Below the pieces are notes generated by a model. That model ran no database searches, was not told the DNA's origin, and saw nothing but the letters and a program-made list of their open reading frames with translations. From Spirosoma telluris (GTDB lineage Bacteria; Bacteroidota; Bacteroidia; Cytophagales; Spirosomataceae): 64,000 bases of DNA. The stretch lies in the NCBI GenBank assembly GCA_003259005.1, contig QLII01000001.1, forward strand, positions 6,749,001 to 6,813,000. The letters run 5' to 3'. Numbering within the stretch: the first letter of the stretch is position 1; every line of letters starts with the position of its first letter. Both the position numbers and the translations under genes were made by a program. Shown piece by piece: positions 1 to 10,024 of the stretch.

Positions 1-1066
1 GCCGTCTCGTACGTTCTCGACCCTCGTCAGAATCTTCGTGTACGATTAAGGTAACGCTGATAGTTTCTTCGCCAATACTACTATCTTCTTCATAGGCAGC
101 CCTGAGACCCTTCAACCGATGCTGGCCGTCAAGTACAAATAAGGTTTCAACCCCGGTTAGCTTGATAACCCCAAAGGTATCCCCTAAAAATTCCAAGTCC
201 TGTCCACTAACTGATAACCCTGCTGCGCTGTAGCTTATATCCAAGTTCAGCCAGTCAGGGCTTCCACCAAATACTGCTACTGTTAAATTATTGATGTATT
301 TATCTGGTTGCATCAGCAGGTATTTCTTAATAGGGATTAGCCTCTTAATGTCGTATGCCCGCTGCAATAAATTGCTTACCCCTCGTTCAGAGTAAATTTC
401 AGAGACTTCTTCAACCGTTTTTATACGAAAGTTGGGAGAGTTTCGGGTTCCAAAATTCCTAACGACATCGGCCACAGTAATGGCAACTTGGTAATATCGC
501 CATTGCCCAAACTGACCTGTTAAGGCTGGTAGATATAGCTCAACGTGGGCATATGCTTTTATGTTTTGATTGATAACATCGCCCCTGAATTGGTTATTCA
601 TTGGGGGAACCGTCATGTTAATAAGATCGAATTCAATATCAGTCAATTCTTTCTTAGTGAAATTAGGCGTCTCAAAGTAGTGAAATTGAAGTCGCTCCTG
701 CCAGATCAAAATCATTATACGCTTTAACTGATCACTTGGCTTTTTCGACTTAACATACCCAAAATAGCCATTGAATCGTTCTTGAAGATTACTTGCTTGA
801 CCAACATACATGATGTAACTATGCTGGCCATTTGTCATCGGAGCATTTGATGACCTCAATACAAACATATATACTCCCATAGATTGGGGAAGCATCGTGG
901 CATTTGAGCGTTCAAATTTAACTTCCTGCCAGTTAAGTGTATGGCTGTGTAATATTTTTGTCGGAGCCTCCCATAGCCGACAATCCGCGCAAAAAGTTCG
1001 CCAACGATGAAGGTCGTTCTGCAAGATTTTTTCGTTAGTTAGCTCTGGCGTGTATAATGTACCCAT
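1..1066 (-). CDS. dndB: GIY-YIG nuclease fused to DndB-like DGQHR protein (C-terminus outside window)
   Basis: The frame opens at an ATG at 1066 and is still open at base 1, so 355 codons are visible and the C-terminus is missing. Residues ~64-158 look like a complete GIY-YIG nuclease: GVY at 64-66, YVG at 87-89, the catalytic-type Arg in NLQERF near 97, a Glu in the KELTDIE helix near 140-145 and the closing PPMNN. The DGQHR signature of the DndB/DGQHR family stands at about 313-317 (FVLDGQHRLKGL). DndB regulates DNA phosphorothioation by repressing dnd transcription in studied systems. The gene follows dndE-herA by 22 bp on the same strand. A nuclease joined to DndB is unusual; whether it cuts DNA is inference. 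Confidence 0.8.
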   Translation of the reverse strand, partial: MGTLYTPELTNEKILQNDLHRWRTFCADCRLWEAPTKILHSHTLNWQEVKFERSNATMLPQSMGVYMFVLRSSNAPMTNGQHSYIMYVGQASNLQERFNGYFGYVKSKKPSDQLKRIMILIWQERLQFHYFETPNFTKKELTDIEFDLINMTVPPMNNQFRGDVINQNIKAYAHVELYLPALTGQFGQWRYYQVAITVADVVRNFGTRNSPNFRIKTVEEVSEIYSERGVSNLLQRAYDIKRLIPIKKYLLMQPDKYINNLTVAVFGGSPDWLNLDISYSAAGLSVSGQDLEFLGDTFGVIKLTGVETLFVLDGQHRLKGLRAAYEEDSSIGEETISVTLIVHEDSDEGRERTRR

Positions 1067-1088: not shown

Positions 1089-2678
1089 TCACTTATTAAA
1101 CCGCTCCAATTTTATCAACTCTCCTTTCTTAAATTCCTTCAAACTCGTTACGGCTTGGCCGGATTCGATTTTTTCCATGTTTCGGGCGAGAAGTAAGCCC
1201 TCTTTTTCGCTGTAGCCTAGGAAACGGGTCATCGTTTTTAGGTTGCGGTTTTTGATATTCAGCAGGAATACATTGGCACAGTTGGCCGAGAAGTCGATGT
1301 CGGGTTGGATGAACTCTTCGATTTGCTGCGATACCAGCACCACCATCACACCTTTCGAGCGGATTTCACGAAGCATGGTATCCAGAATGGCGCGGGACTT
1401 TGGCTCTTTGAAAATATTATGGGCTTCGTCAATCAGGAAGACGTACCGGATGGCCTGTAATGCGTTGCCGAAATCATCTGCCTCCACGGGCGCGTCGTCC
1501 ATGTTCATGAACGTGTTGTGGATGTAGTTAATCATCAGGAACGTGGCCGTAAACCGTACTGCATCATCTAAGTTGGAACCCAAGCTGATATAATAGTTCT
1601 GGTTCAGAAAGCTGTTTTTGACATCGGTAGCGGGCGCAAACATATCCAGTTCGCTGAGGCTGTCCATAATCTGCGTCAACGTTCCGGGTCGACCACCCGT
1701 AACGGTACGTAATTCGTCGTTTATGTCAGACAGCGATGGGTATTCGCCATTCTTTTTGGCGTCGAAAGCGGCTTTGGTAGCTTCCTTTAATTGCTGTTGC
1801 TGCACCGGCCCCATTCGCGATGCGTATTTCATGACAATGTCGACAAACTTGCTGATTCCCTGAATCTTGTTTTTGCTGTTCACATTGTCGATGAACGACA
1901 GCGGGTTGAACGGAAACGGCGTTTGCGGTACGTCGACATACGTGGCCCGCGTCGCATCGAAAAACGGTTGCCGACGCGGCCGGTCGCCGGGTTGCATCCC
2001 TTTGAAGTCGAAATAGATGAAGTTAACTGCTCCGTTCGATGCGGCCACTAGTTGTTGCAGCAGGCTAAGGGCAAACTGCGTTTTACCACTCCCCGACTCA
2101 CCCGCTACCGCTACGTGTGCGTTTGCATGCAACTGCACGTCGTTCATGATCGCGGTTAGCTGCTCGCCCGTCTCGATGTCATAACCGACTGTAACGCCCA
2201 GCCGCCCGGCAAAGTACCCTTTTTTGATGGTCTGATTATTGTTCGTAACTGATGTAAGGGGGACGTCGGCATCTTCAAGAGCCTCGATTCCCCGTTCGAC
2301 TTCATCGAACAGAAAGTCAAGCCCGGTATAGGTCTTGTTTTGCTGGAATAGCTTGTCCATCATATCAAGACCATCATCGAGGTGCATCTTGATATACTTT
2401 GCCAGATTGCCGTCGGTGCTGGGAATCAGGTAGTGCTGGCAAACGAGGGCGATGTAGAGCGACCGGTATTTGCCCAGCAAAATCTGGTCGGTGTATTCCT
2501 TGCCCTTGCTATCCTGTAGGTCGGTTTCAATGTTGAGCCGGTTGCCTTTGGAAAGCGAGTAATTCAGGGCAATACGAGCCACCACGTTTTCGCTCAGGCG
2601 CGTGGAGCCGCCAATTCGGTTGGTTAAATCGGTAACACGCTGCCGGTTAGCCTCCGACGTTTTGATATTAATCTGCAT
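1089..2678 (-). CDS. dndE: DndE-HerA/FtsK-type ATPase fusion
   Basis: This 529-residue protein has two parts. Residues 1 to ~115 resemble DndE, the small DNA-binding protein of phosphorothioation (normally only about 110-130 residues), including the ENVVARIALNYSLSKG stretch and QILLGKYRSLYIALV. Residues ~150-529 form a HerA/FtsK-like P-loop ATPase with Walker A GESGSGKT at 193-200, a hydrophobic strand ending FDFKGMQP, Walker B LIDEAH at 415-420 and a VLVSQQ sensor segment. HerA-type motors translocate DNA; DndH of the DndFGH restriction module also carries such an ATPase. The start overlaps the end of the dndD remnant by 11 bp, as in a coupled operon. Joining nick-binding DndE to a motor suggests a translocating modification or restriction complex (inference). 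Confidence 0.85.
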   Translation of the reverse strand: MQINIKTSEANRQRVTDLTNRIGGSTRLSENVVARIALNYSLSKGNRLNIETDLQDSKGKEYTDQILLGKYRSLYIALVCQHYLIPSTDGNLAKYIKMHLDDGLDMMDKLFQQNKTYTGLDFLFDEVERGIEALEDADVPLTSVTNNNQTIKKGYFAGRLGVTVGYDIETGEQLTAIMNDVQLHANAHVAVAGESGSGKTQFALSLLQQLVAASNGAVNFIYFDFKGMQPGDRPRRQPFFDATRATYVDVPQTPFPFNPLSFIDNVNSKNKIQGISKFVDIVMKYASRMGPVQQQQLKEATKAAFDAKKNGEYPSLSDINDELRTVTGGRPGTLTQIMDSLSELDMFAPATDVKNSFLNQNYYISLGSNLDDAVRFTATFLMINYIHNTFMNMDDAPVEADDFGNALQAIRYVFLIDEAHNIFKEPKSRAILDTMLREIRSKGVMVVLVSQQIEEFIQPDIDFSANCANVFLLNIKNRNLKTMTRFLGYSEKEGLLLARNMEKIESGQAVTSLKEFKKGELIKLERFNK

Positions 2679-3035: not shown

Positions 3036-4043
3036 ATGATGGCTACATACGATTACTATGATATTGTAGGAGAACTTATTAGTAATAAAGTGATTCCGAA
3101 AGGAGATGAATTTGATTTTGAAATGAGTCCAACATCACTAAACTATAGTAGGTATTTTCAATTTTGTCAAGAAAATCTCTCGGAGCGTTGCAATGATTAT
3201 AACATTCAGCCTGCTAAATTCTATTTCAGAGAAAGTTTCGAGGTAAACGCAAGGGCGGGTTTCAAAAATAAATATTATGTAATAGCAGTTAACAAAGGTA
3301 CGATTCACACCCTATATGATTTTTTCTATAATCAGAATAATATTTTTGAAGAAAGCGAACTTGCTGATTTTAACCAATTGAATGCAATTTTAGATGTCCC
3401 TGTCGGCTACTTTATGTATCAGTCTGCAACCTTATTCACTTACTATCACGAGTTAGGTCATCTAATTCAATTCAGTAATATTATCCACAATGAAGTTATA
3501 CCAGAACTCTGGCTAAATGAACAATATGACAATAGTGTAGACAATTTTGATTTCACTAAACACATTTATGAATTTGACGCAGATGTGCACGCAGCCAACT
3601 CCGTATGCTTTCATCCAATTGATTTATGGTCAAATTTGGACGATGAATACAAAACTCTAGGTAATTTAGAAAAAATACTTAGTCTGACATTAGCAAGTGT
3701 CTTTTCATACTTCATGTTCTTAATGAAAAACAAAAACGAAGAAATTTATTATAATAAGTATACACACCCTCATCCATTGATTCGAATTACATATATACTA
3801 ACAGCCTTTATAGATGTAGCAAAAATATACTATCCCACTATAAGTCAACAAAACGTTATTAATGATGTTTTTAAAGTTACTACTATCCTCTTTAAAAAGT
3901 CCAAGGTGGAGAATATTATTATTGAGTATCAAGATAAATTATTCAAAGAATACCAAAATATTACAGATTATATTAGTTTAATCCTTGAAAAAATAAAGGA
4001 TGATCCAACATTAGTTGTCAACACCGTCCATAAAAAACAATGA
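3036..4043 (+). CDS. HELGH zinc metallopeptidase-like protein, AT-rich, inside the dnd locus
   Basis: This 335-residue protein has no family I can name. It carries HELGH at 138-142, within FTYYHELGHLIQF, and a second motif EFDADVHA at 179-186. That is the spacing and form of the second helix that supplies the third zinc ligand in gluzincin peptidases (ExxxD). There is no signal peptide, so it is probably cytoplasmic. The C-terminal third is Ile/Lys/Asn-rich and helical. Base composition is clearly AT-richer than the neighbours, and the gene is antisense to the dnd operon exactly where dndD has lost its 5' part, so recent acquisition is likely. The motif pair recalls Lit/U49-type phage-exclusion peptidases, but this rests on two motifs only. 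Confidence 0.75.
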   Translation: MMATYDYYDIVGELISNKVIPKGDEFDFEMSPTSLNYSRYFQFCQENLSERCNDYNIQPAKFYFRESFEVNARAGFKNKYYVIAVNKGTIHTLYDFFYNQNNIFEESELADFNQLNAILDVPVGYFMYQSATLFTYYHELGHLIQFSNIIHNEVIPELWLNEQYDNSVDNFDFTKHIYEFDADVHAANSVCFHPIDLWSNLDDEYKTLGNLEKILSLTLASVFSYFMFLMKNKNEEIYYNKYTHPHPLIRITYILTAFIDVAKIYYPTISQQNVINDVFKVTTILFKKSKVENIIIEYQDKLFKEYQNITDYISLILEKIKDDPTLVVNTVHKKQ

Positions 4044-4071
4044 GCCTTTATCATTTTGTAATAAATATTAC

Positions 4072-5049
4072 TTACTTAAATACATACTTTCGGTGCCACT
4101 CAAGTGCTCCAATATCAGGCAAGAACTTTCCGTCTCTTGGCAATTCAATTTGCTTTCCAGCTAACGCTTTCAATGAATAAATACTAGATTCATTTTCCAC
4201 GAACGTTGGAGAAACTATAACACGGTAGTCTTCAATCGAAATAACTCCTTTGTCAAACGCTCGGTGCAGATTCGGACAGAGCGCAATTCCGTTTGTTGGA
4301 TGATTATTGAACGTTTTGTAAAAGGGCACGATATGGCAGGCATCAACCATTGAAAATGTATACGGAGCTGACACCCGAATACCAGTTATGCAACACGTAT
4401 CATCGTAAAGCTTAACTATCTCGCGCCGAAATAGCGTATCACGAGCAAACACTTCAATTTGATAGGTTTCAGGATCAAGTCTGGTTTTTAAATCTCTCAG
4501 CTTGGCACGGTACTCAACGGGGCTTTCTTCCAGCATTTCACGAGCCAGATCATCAAGGTGCGCGTCTGGGCTAACAGGAACAATAATTGTCTGATTAGGA
4601 AAGTAAGTCGTTAGTAACGTTTGGCGAAGAATAGCCCGTGTTTGTTCAGCCTTAAGCAGTTCAGCCAAATTAGGGTCAATTTGAGCATAGGCCACGGCAG
4701 CACTTAAATTACCAAAGCTTGTTAATTTACCATATTGCACCCACGTCTCACAGCCCGGATTTGCTACTAATTCCCACCAGTCCCCTTTCTCATTTTTAAG
4801 ATGAAAAAAGGGAAGTGCAAACCCCAACGTATGATCTGTCGTTACAAATAGATTCCAATTCGTTTTAAAGATTCCGGTAAGCTCAGGGGATATAGGTATT
4901 TGATTGGTAGTAAGTAACTTACTTTCGTAAGCCTGAATAATAGATAGTAGTAAAACGGGTTTATGAGGGGCTTTTTCTTTGATTTTTCCTCCACCCATAT
5001 TTAGGTTGGAGAATGCATAAATATAGTAATCAAGTATTTTATCAGCCAC
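4072..5049 (-). CDS. Phosphorothioated-DNA-binding HNH restriction endonuclease (SBD-HNH)
   Basis: A 325-residue two-domain protein. The N-terminal ~150 residues resemble the sulfur-binding domain of ScoMcrA-type enzymes: KAPHKPVLLLSII near 25-37 and ALPFFHLKNEKGDWWEL near 77-93, which parallels the family pattern (Y/A)PFxxL...WE. The C-terminal part is an HNH nuclease of the HNH_2 type, with CCITG, ACHIVPF and NGIALCPNLHRAFD. Such enzymes recognise phosphorothioate-modified DNA and cut near it. The chosen start is GTG at 5049, which overlaps the dndC stop by 8 bp and implies translational coupling. A sulfur-reading nuclease within a dnd operon could act on foreign modified DNA or on misplaced self modification; that role is inferred. 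Confidence 0.8.
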   Translation of the reverse strand: MADKILDYYIYAFSNLNMGGGKIKEKAPHKPVLLLSIIQAYESKLLTTNQIPISPELTGIFKTNWNLFVTTDHTLGFALPFFHLKNEKGDWWELVANPGCETWVQYGKLTSFGNLSAAVAYAQIDPNLAELLKAEQTRAILRQTLLTTYFPNQTIIVPVSPDAHLDDLAREMLEESPVEYRAKLRDLKTRLDPETYQIEVFARDTLFRREIVKLYDDTCCITGIRVSAPYTFSMVDACHIVPFYKTFNNHPTNGIALCPNLHRAFDKGVISIEDYRVIVSPTFVENESSIYSLKALAGKQIELPRDGKFLPDIGALEWHRKYVFK

Positions 5050-6380
5050 GAACGGTATCCTTTATACGTCTAACAAGAAAACTATCCAATCGCTTTTCCA
5101 AGTCCTGTTGAAGGCCACGTTTTTTGCGCAGGAAAGTCTTATTTCTTTGTAGAAGTAGCATTTCCTGAATTAGTTCGACGTGTTCAGGTTGGTCGATGCA
5201 AACTTCACGAAGCAACTCCTCTTCCCGATAAAGCTTCTCAATATGCCTAGGCATATCAATTTCGGTGTCATAGATGCGGTTATAAATATCGGCTACTTTG
5301 GGCTAAATACACCATCTCGGAACCAGGTTAATTGAATGGCTACCAGTTCCTGATGGGTAATCAGTTCCATTAGGTCGCCCTGCGAATCCTGAATTTCCTT
5401 TTGGGCCTGTAGTAACATAGTCAGAAACTCAGCCCGGATTTTGGGCGTATACGGCCCCCAGGTATTTTCGTCTTCTTCTTTATAGGCGCTTTCGGTACGT
5501 CGGCGTTTTTCGCGGGAGTCACGGTTCGAGCGCTCCACTAAAATCTTGTTACGGAGTTCCATGAGTGGTTCCATCCAATCGTCGCCGTTACCAATTAGCC
5601 CTTCCATGCTTTTATCCCGGCTCACCACCGTACAAACCCAGCAGCCAAACCGGCTATTACCGCAGGAAGGCGTTGTTTCGTCAATTACGAGCGGGCAGTC
5701 GCCGGAGTTGGCATTCCGATACAACGTCACCAATTCCTTGTGTGTACCGCCCCAGGGTGGCGATACCTGCATCATGTATTGCCAGAGTTCACCGGTTTCA
5801 ATATCCCGAATGGGCGCATACACAAATGCATTGGGGAGTATGTGTTTACGCAAGCGCTGCCCTTTCAGTTCGTGCCGTTTCATGGACCGGGCGCGGCTTT
5901 GGCTTTCATCAGAACGCGTACCGAGTAGGATAATAGCCTCACCCGATTCGCTGATTTTTTCCTGAATAAAGCGCGTCGTGGGATTTATTTTGAGTCGTTC
6001 GGTACACCACGGAACGAGTTTGTGGGAGCCGGGTAGCCTTTACCAATTAGATTCACCCAGAACGTATCTTCAAGCCGGGGTGTCGTGCGGTGTACGCTGA
6101 TCGGTAAGCCCTGCTGCGTTGCCGATTTCTGTAGCAGCTTTAATGTGCGATTGATAAAGGCAACAATTTTAGGATTTTCGACAAGTGTGTCATTGCACAC
6201 AACATAAATACGTCGATTCCTTAATTCGGCTGGAATTTTCATCAAGGCCCGCCAAACCACCTGCAACAGCATGGTTGAATCTTTGCCACCACTAAAGCCA
6301 ATAATCCATGGGCGTGGGTTCTCGTCGTAGAGATACTGGTCGGTGATTTCGGCTTCTATGAAAGGGAGCTTGAGAGACAT
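5042..6380 (-). CDS. dndC: DndC phosphorothioation sulfurtransferase (two frame breaks)
   Basis: DndC is the PAPS-reductase-like, Fe-S ATP pyrophosphatase that activates the DNA backbone for sulfur insertion. From ATG 6380 the protein shows SGGKDS at 30-35, the family block DTLVENPK, and DTFWVNLIGKGYPAP. The first frame (6380-5985) breaks in the conserved FRWCTERLK block near 6012; adding one base restores it and leads into MKRHELKGQ. The second frame holds CGNSRFGCWVC, which with the WC of the first break supplies the expected Fe-S cysteines. It breaks again near 5293: adding one C to CCC gives VADIYNRIYDTEID and joins the last 70 codons (5254-5042). The repaired length is about 447 residues, usual for DndC. 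Both breaks look like homopolymer errors. Confidence 0.82.
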
Positions 6381-8166: not shown

Positions 8167-8251
8167 AATGAGCGAATGAGCGAATGAGTGAATGAGTGAA
8201 TACCACCTGGTTGATCATTCACTCATTCACTCATTCGCTAATTCACTCATT
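8167..8251. repeat. Inverted repeat of 35-bp arms in the aspS leader
   Basis: Left arm 8167-8201 and right arm 8217-8251 are reverse complements with two mismatches, around a 15-base loop. Each arm is itself made of short 8-mer units of the form gaatgagt/gaatgagc. It ends 4 bp before the aspS ATG, so the start codon would sit at the foot of a strong RNA hairpin. Confidence 0.9.
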
Positions 8252-8255
8252 AAAA

Positions 8256-10024
8256 ATGCTCCGAACGCACACTTGCGGGGAACTCCGCCTTTCTAACGAT
8301 AATCAAACTGCCACACTGGCTGGCTGGGTTCAAACCATCCGCGATAAAGGCGGTGTTCTGTGGATCGACCTCCGCGACCGCTACGGGATTACGCAGCTTC
8401 TGCTCGAAGACGGCCAGACTGCCCCTGAATTGTTCACGATTGCCCGCTCACTGGGTCGTGAATTTGTCCTGAAAGCCACTGGGACGGTTATTGAACGGAA
8501 GTCAAAAAACCCGAATATCCCAACCGGCGAGGTTGAACTGAAAGTGACGTCGCTGGAGGTATTGAACCCGGCTAAATTGCCGCCCTTCCTGATCGAAGAT
8601 ACCACCGATGGGGGCGACGATCTCCGCATGAAATACCGCTACCTCGACCTTCGCCGGAATCCGGTTCGGAAGAGTCTGGAACTGCGCCACCGCATGGCCC
8701 AGCAAACGCGGGTGTACATGGATGGCCAGAATTTCATTGAGGTCGAAACACCAGTTTTGATCAAATCGACGCCCGAAGGTGCACGCGATTTTGTGGTGCC
8801 CAGCCGCATGAATCCGGGTGAGTTTTACGCCCTGCCCCAATCACCCCAGACGTTCAAGCAACTATTGATGGTATCGGGATTCGATCGTTACTATCAGATT
8901 GTCAAGTGTTTCCGCGACGAAGACCTTCGTGCCGACCGTCAGCCTGAGTTCACACAGATCGACTGCGAGATGTCGTTTGTGGAGCAGGAAGACATCCTGA
9001 ACATGTTCGAGGGTCTGGTGCGGCATTTGTTTAAAGCCGTAAAAGGTATCGACATGGCCGAAGTGCCGCGCATGACCTATGCCGATGCCATGAAGTTCTA
9101 CGGTTCCGACAAGCCTGACACGCGTTTTGGCATGCAGTTCGTTGAACTCAAAGCCCCATTCGACACCGTCGACATGACCTCGGGCAAAGGGTTCGGCGTA
9201 TTCGATTCGGCAGAATTGGTCGTGGGTATCAACGCACCCGGTTGCGCACATTATACCCGCAAGCAACTCGATGAACTGACGGATTGGATCAAACGCCCAC
9301 AGGTGGGGGCCAAAGGTTTGATCTATGTTCGGTATAACGAAGATGGCACCCTGAAATCATCGGTCGATAAGTTCTATTCAGAAGCCGATCTGAAAGGCTG
9401 GGCGGCCCATTTTGGTGCTAAACCGGCGATTTGATGCTGATCCTTTCGGGCGAATGCGCCAAAGCGCGTAAACAACTCAATGAGCTGCGTCTGGAAATGG
9501 GCACCCGGCTTGGCCTGCGCGATCCCAACGTGTTCAGTACGCTGTGGGTTCTTGACTTCCCCCTGCTTGAGTATGGCGAAGAAGAGCAACGCTGGTTTGC
9601 GATGCACCACCCGTTCACATCACCCAAACCAGAAGACATTCCCCTGCTCGACACGGACTTAGGGTCGGTACGGGCTAATGCCTACGATTTAGTTATCAAC
9701 GGTACGGAAGTTGGTGGTGGTTCGATCCGGATCTTCAACCGCGACCTACAGGCCCGTATGTTCAGCATTTTGGGGTTCTCGGACGAAGAAGCCAAAGCGC
9801 AGTTTGGCTTCCTGATGGATGCCTTCGAGTTTGGGGCTCCTCCGCACGGTGGCATCGCCTTCGGTTTCGACCGGCTGTGCTCCCTCTTCGGTGGTGCCGA
9901 TTCCATCCGCGATTTCATCGCCTTCCCGAAAAACAACTCGGGTCGCGATGTCATGATCGACTCGCCTTCTGTAATCAGTCAGGCGCAGTTGAACGAACTG
10001 AAAATCGCGACAGTCGCGAAGTGA
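8256..10024 (+). CDS. aspS: Aspartyl-tRNA synthetase (one frame break)
   Basis: A class II aminoacyl-tRNA synthetase charging tRNA-Asp, cytoplasmic and essential. The N-terminal OB-fold anticodon domain ([19 protein letters not shown]) is followed by motif 2 ([19 protein letters not shown]) and, near the end, motif 3 ([14 protein letters not shown]). The ATG at 8256 is chosen over an upstream in-frame ATG at 8196, whose codons come from the repeat. The frame breaks near 9431: adding one G (CCGG to CCGGG) turns AKPAI-stop into [13 protein letters not shown], the expected family sequence, and continues to 10024. Repaired length is about 590 residues, normal for bacterial AspRS. As cells cannot lose this gene, the break is best read as a sequencing deletion. 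Confidence 0.93.

Follow-up and report, generated by a model that had tools for sequence, protein, structure and literature searches.

The window analysed here, i.e., the whole stretch of 64,000 nucleotides of Spirosoma telluris DNA, contains an open reading frame (ORF) coding for a genuine and intact fusion of a DndE domain with a HerA/FtsK-type ATPase. Fusions of this type are already known and widespread, and the protein is no one-off. In the reading that we prefer, and for which the case is about evenly balanced, the protein is a member of the described family of DndE-HerA/FtsK fusions, its HerA motor replaces DndH or PbeA in cis, and the operon in the window is most likely dead or dying. 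The coordinates of the individual features are collected in Table 1.

Table 1. Features of the dnd-type operon in the window (positions are those of the window).
Feature	Position	Strand	Evidence and remarks
DndB/DGQHR protein gene	2..1066	minus	crosses the window edge; full length 602 aa (L002:13258-15066)
dndE-HerA/FtsK fusion gene	1089..2678	minus	529 aa, uninterrupted ORF
HerA/FtsK-type ATPase domain, ~residues 157-493	1200..2210	minus	Pfam, PADLOC, conserved residues, PDB profile search
DndE domain, residues 5-111	2346..2666	minus	PF08870, E 1.2e-19; genome position C1:6751346-6751666
dndD remnant, last ~106 of ~705 residues	2668..3000	minus	tblastn with G017 DndD, residues 600-705, 87.7% identity
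Low-GC gene (30.6%) where dndD should continue	3036..4043	plus	HELGH motif by eye
SBD-HNH-type nuclease gene (phosphorothioate-DNA-binding restriction family)	4072..5049	minus	PF13391, E 2.1e-14
dndC, residues 1-441 of the 448 of G017	5060..6380	minus	tblastn, PADLOC/NCBIfam DndC; three frames as assembled

The first-pass annotation had given the exact limits of the fusion ORF and had described it as a DndE part followed by a HerA/FtsK-type P-loop motor. Both parts proved to be real in profile searches. The gene is read from the minus strand, and the plus-strand reading of the same stretch is broken by stops. The DndE domain scored 71.1 bits with the Pfam model (cut-off 25) and was also recovered by the PADLOC DndE model (E 2.1e-11). 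The NCBIfam equivalog TIGR03184 matched with E 6.2e-11 and 42.7 bits, which is under the cut-off of this model (71.85); therefore, we call the N-terminus a DndE-family domain and not an NCBI-defined equivalog. DndE consists of two tandem ribbon-helix-helix units (PMC10853773). In the ATPase part, the Pfam models FtsK_SpoIIIE (30.5 bits, cut-off 24) and HerA_C (24.2 bits, cut-off 22) were over their cut-offs, and DUF87 fell just short (22.2 bits, cut-off 23.2). The best PADLOC matches of this part were mad8 (E 1.8e-20) and the C-terminal ATPase of DndH (residues 157-483, E 2e-19). Among the NCBIfam motor models, VirB4_CagE was at the top (E 3.5e-12) and CedB was also among the leading ones, both far under their cut-offs. 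As these conjugation-type ATPases lead in NCBIfam, DndH/DptH may or may not be the nearest kin of the motor; the kinship with the restriction side that had been claimed for it holds in that its close relatives include DndH/DptH.

The Walker A motif GESGSGKT (residues 193-200) and the Walker B motif LIDEAH (residues 415-420) were found exactly where they had been reported. The window fusion was aligned with eight homologues that are 37-95% identical to it, and K199, T200, D417, E418, R437, R440, and Q451 were identical in all nine proteins. HerA/FtsK ATPases are recognized by Walker A and B motifs, a glutamine ending core strand 4, and an arginine upstream of the strand (PMC10853773). The corresponding residues of the fusion are K199/T200, D417/E418, Q451, and R440, with the strand positions deduced from sequence alone. 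A search of the PDB with the nine-protein profile retrieved, as the closest relatives of known structure, the DptH ATPase (7es4; profile positions 157-488, E 2.1e-16) and DndE (7x4e; profile positions 18-105, E 1.4e-8). The motor thus belongs to the same family as the C-terminal ATPase of DndH/DptH across most of the domain, whereas DndH is a protein of ~1730 aa with restriction domains and the motor in the window is attached to DndE instead. Similarly, the stand-alone DndE of 7x4e matches the DndE part of the fused profile, but the stand-alone DndEs of 12 loci are encoded by ORFs of 124-169 aa, in contrast to the 529-aa fusion. The AlphaFold2 model of the fusion, built from an alignment of 3 sequences only, had a mean pLDDT of 35 and was unusable.

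HerA/FtsK domains fused to DndE and located beside a DndD-related ABC ATPase were described by Rakesh, Aravind, and Krishnan (2024, Nucleic Acids Res., PMC10853773), where the fused motors are termed 'clade-3' HerA/FtsK domains and the fusion is credited to Krishnan et al. 2020. In excerpts of PMC8569181, a DndE-motor fusion is not mentioned. Consequently, the suggestion that the fusion is an unusual form of DndE had to be abandoned, as the form is in print in the passages of PMC10853773 on it and common in the phylum. The features of the published group, i.e., both domains in one chain, a DndH-type motor, and a DndD-related neighbour, were all found in the window; however, in contrast to the published fusions, the dndD neighbour in the window is a mere remnant. 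Of 395 genomes sampled across the phylum, 10 (the genome of the window counted) had DndE over the cut-off, half of them with the domain in open frames of 511 aa or more and half in frames of 135-169 aa. Of 395 genomes sampled from the class, at least 10 matched the fused profile over nearly its full length, including the genome of the window and G204, which is broken by many stops, and at least 6 had a DndE-only match among the matches listed; these counts are lower bounds, with at most three candidates scored per genome. A search of 149 relatives, the genome of the window included, gave 19 genomes with a match at E <=0.001. Full or near-full fused copies were present in G000 (the window), G013, G017, G026, G045, G040, G145, G085, and G129; the copy was damaged in G016 and interrupted by a transposase gene in G125; DndE alone was matched in three genomes (G094, G020, and G102) and the ATPase alone in five. 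Homologues 95% and 84% identical to the window fusion come from S. utsteinense and S. fluviale. The fusion is not an assembly artefact, because full-length fused homologues exist in other species and genera, and because, in the copy of G125 that looks split, the two parts are separated by a DDE transposase gene. For the same reason, the 'unfused' pair of G125 was ruled out as an ancestral split. One scan of viral contigs with the fused alignment revealed no relative, and a plasmid search returned 5 records that matched the ATPase part only, none of which covered 80% of the query.

In most of the relatives examined, the gene order is dndC-dndD-dndE-HerA. A gene for a DndB/DGQHR-type protein often comes next after the fusion, a cysteine desulfurase gene is often nearby, and the operon is conserved in other genera. 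In the window, the dndD remnant overlaps the start of the fusion gene by 11 bases. No DndD over the cut-off was found in the genome of the window; its two matches were the tail (50.1 bits) and a weak one (31.4 bits) of a kind that also occurs in 9 of 14 control genomes. A working DndCDE system should include a full-length DndD ABC ATPase with a Walker A motif, and the genome of the window has only residues ~600-705 of it. G017 and other genera have a full-length DndD, and the proteins of G017 and G013 scored 261.3 and 260.5 bits, respectively, which is over the NCBIfam DndD cut-off of 245.85; the top PADLOC label of these two fused-locus proteins was 'PbeC'.

Two genes stand where the missing part of dndD should be. 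The one at 3036..4043, with a GC content of 30.6% vs. 48.1% for the window, codes for a possible metallopeptidase; it gave no family over the cut-off and no PADLOC or PHROGs match. The product of the SBD-HNH-type gene matched NF045808 with E 1.1e-27 and 96.9 bits, under the NCBIfam cut-off of 180, and its nearest solved relative is SBDHga1 (PDB 8h0l, E 8.4e-8). On the other side of the fusion, the DndB/DGQHR protein scored 90.5 bits with PF14072 (cut-off 29.1) and 84.8 bits with TIGR03187 (cut-off 58.85). By eye, its N-terminus is GIY-YIG-like (GVY..YVG..R). The part of the protein inside the window scored 17.6 bits with GIY_YIG_2 (cut-off 22.4) and 16.7 bits with GIY-YIG (cut-off 22.6), and neither of these Pfam models was listed for the full-length protein of 602 aa. 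This neighbour is a candidate nuclease partner of the fusion. It resembles the DndI/SspE-type NTPase-nucleases by motif alone, i.e., DGQHR vs. the DGQQR of DndI, where the motif is required for ATPase activity according to the passages of PMC11662687 on it. DndI has an HNH nuclease, whereas the DndB-type protein of the window has the N-terminal GIY-YIG-like stretch that is below the Pfam cut-offs.

We compared 22 fused loci (3 of them damaged: G016, G125, and G204) with 12 loci of stand-alone DndE, all of them from the phylum, class, and relatives searches described above. Stretches of ~9-20 kb per locus were searched, several of which stop at contig edges; in the case of the window, all 64 kb and the flank were used. 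The queries for DndF, DndG, DndH, and PbeA came from three stand-alone loci (G503, G350, and G094), and tblastn hits longer than 150 aa were counted. DndF/G/H was found in 5 of the 12 stand-alone loci (for G850, the hit covers just the C-terminal half of DndH, where the stretch ends) and PbeA in 5 others (partial in G211, also at the stretch end), which gives 10 of 12 with one or the other. DndF, DndG, and PbeA were found with these queries in none of the 22 fused loci, where distant relatives could be missed because all queries derived from stand-alone loci. In 14 of the fused loci, the matches of the DndH query were confined to the fused ATPase region, and in the other 8 it had no match longer than 150 aa. 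In a query-free check, no ORF above 1,204 aa was listed in the fused stretches, while DndH has ~1,730 aa. When five Spirosoma genomes were searched whole, the DndH query matched the fused ATPase alone. The difference between 0/22 and 10/12 corresponds to a Fisher p of 5e-7, calculated post hoc and with ancestry ignored; since one clade of the dndD tree holds 11 of the 12 stand-alone rows, the contrast may be nearly a single evolutionary event.

We did not find dndC in the stretches of 4 of the 22 fused loci (G125, G239, G389, and G735), so the fusion is not strictly tied to phosphorothioation. A multi-HTH protein is encoded ahead of dndD in three of these four loci. At L090 4983-11085, L091 4749-10797, and L101 5687-11521, the multi-HTH protein is accompanied by DndD and a divergent DndE-HerA fusion, with no dndC found. 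The multi-HTH proteins have 666-738 aa and, in those scanned, sigma-70 region 4-like, RNA polymerase alpha CTD-like, and helicase-associated matches. Apparently, these loci represent a dnd-like system without sulphur chemistry. In the dndC-less locus of G125, a SufE gene immediately precedes the HNH and dndD genes (L033 14657-15190).

The dndD tree had 31 rows, i.e., 17 from fused loci, 12 from stand-alone loci, and 2 more distant ABC proteins; the 5 fused loci of the 22 that have no whole ORF (G000, G013, G016, G026, and G204) were omitted. The DndE tree, based on a short alignment, included 19 of the 22 fused loci (G013, G016, and G204 omitted) and the 12 stand-alone ones. On the dndD tree the fused state requires 3 changes, and supported branches force 2 of these; the DndE tree requires 2 changes with 1 forced. 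In both trees long branches meet and the roots are uncertain. The fusion may have had a single origin followed by reversal, or several origins. The CxC motif was of no use as a test for the ABC partner. CxC and CxxC were absent from all 17 fused-locus and all 12 stand-alone DndDs, and the two distant ABC outgroup proteins contain CxxC and lack CxC. The assignment of DndD therefore rests on the NCBIfam cut-off and the tree.

Of the five Spirosoma genomes compared, only G017 has an intact dndD. The gene is interrupted by one in-frame stop (codon 410) in G013 and reduced to residues ~298-705 in G026 and to the tail in the genome of the window; in G016 none was found, and a KwaB-like (Kiwa) gene occupies its position. 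The genome of the window, G026, and G016 carry the HNH gene; searches of G013 and G017 yielded none. The fusion gene is intact in four of the five genomes and damaged in G016. At the DNA level, the dndC of the window is closest to that of G026 (88.1%) and the fusion gene to that of G013 (88.6%), and the three HNH genes are mutually only 65-70% identical. The operon of the window looks like a mosaic by these identities. In the three genomes with the HNH gene, an SBD-HNH-type nuclease occupies the position of dndD (window 3036-5049; L027 8623-10832; L028 9215-11703), together with the low-GC opposite-strand gene in the window and, in G016, with the KwaB-like gene and a neighbour of 188 aa that is apparently of membrane type. 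This position looks like a replacement hot spot. Because dndD lacks the first ~600 of its 705 residues, the operon of the window probably no longer modifies DNA and, as a modification system, has most likely died or is dying.

In the proposed mechanism, the DndE part and the DndD ABC ATPase would find the target sites, and the HerA part would be an ATP-driven double-stranded-DNA translocase that does in cis what elsewhere falls to the motor of DndH or to the helicase PbeA. The motor would bring the DNA to nuclease partners, which may be the GIY-YIG-like/DGQHR or the SBD-HNH protein. That DndFGH and PbeA were not found in the fused loci favours, as judged from gene content, a motor that would stand in for the separate restriction motor. 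The idea of the first-pass annotation that one protein may serve both modification and restriction would fit this result. We also put forward, with more doubt than belief, a general pattern in which dnd loci have either a stand-alone DndE and an outside motor (the HerA domain of DndH or the HKD/SF2 helicase PbeA) or a DndE with its own HerA, but not both, and in which the fused scanner-motor could also work without sulphur chemistry, as in the three multi-HTH loci. Such an either/or pattern is not stated in the passages of PMC10853773 on the fusion. Should it hold in a broader sample corrected for ancestry, the fusion would offer a compact system in which to study the cooperation of a site-finding subunit with a DNA motor in sulphur-based defence, and to ask whether marking, cutting, or both depend on the motor. 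The motor could instead serve modification, moving DndCD-DndE along DNA for processive sulphur addition with no role in restriction. The location of the gene inside the modification core, its overlap with the dndD tail, and the fusion to the modification subunit DndE agree with this, but we consider it unlikely, as some fused loci have no detectable dndC, the top PADLOC matches of the motor are mad8 and DndH, and the stand-alone loci, whose DNA modification is assumed, keep dndC, dndD, and dndE without a fused motor. In the genome of the window, the earlier proposal of a modification machine moving along DNA is unsupported because dndD is truncated there.

A different fate of the window operon, in which the fusion was repurposed to act without DndD in a modification-free defence with the HNH and GIY-YIG-like/DGQHR proteins, seems improbable to us. 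Since the separation from G013, the intact fusion gene has accumulated 61 synonymous and 10 non-synonymous changes, with an omega of 0.047 that indicates conservation, and it is also intact in G026 and G013, where dndD is truncated and stopped, respectively. However, the control fails, as the dndD tail gave an equally low omega of 0.044 (19 synonymous vs. 3 non-synonymous changes) over the same period, and G016, in which no dndD was found, has a damaged fusion too. Because the presumably dead tail is equally conserved, the conservation of the fusion is uninformative on its use after the loss of dndD, and selection on the fusion after that loss was set aside as unproven. Probably, dndD was lost recently or its tail is still used. 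Very improbable is the view that the operon has not decayed and the truncation of dndD is an assembly error. The assembly probably does carry indel errors, so that other split genes in the window should be read with care: aspS (window 8196-10024) is split by a frameshift and no second good copy of it was found in the genome of the window, dndC and the cysteine desulfurase gene are also frameshifted, and the completeness of the genome is 94.65%. For this reason, the frameshifts of dndC were not taken as a sign of decay. Yet indels cannot swap ~1.8 kb of dndD for two genes, and G026 and G016 likewise show the HNH gene with a truncated or missing dndD.

Further genes were observed around the fusion in its relatives. 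In some of them, two more genes follow the fusion (L030 11393-13451; L031 7709-9773). In L030, the N-terminal part of the first gene product matches PD-Lambda-5_A of PADLOC (9.8e-27), and the product of the next gene has no clear family. In both fused and stand-alone DndE systems, a small protein of 156-191 aa, membrane-spanning by eye, is encoded before the DndB-like DGQHR protein (L032 8805-9380; L025 16556-17026; L088 11519-12004; L093 5650-6201).
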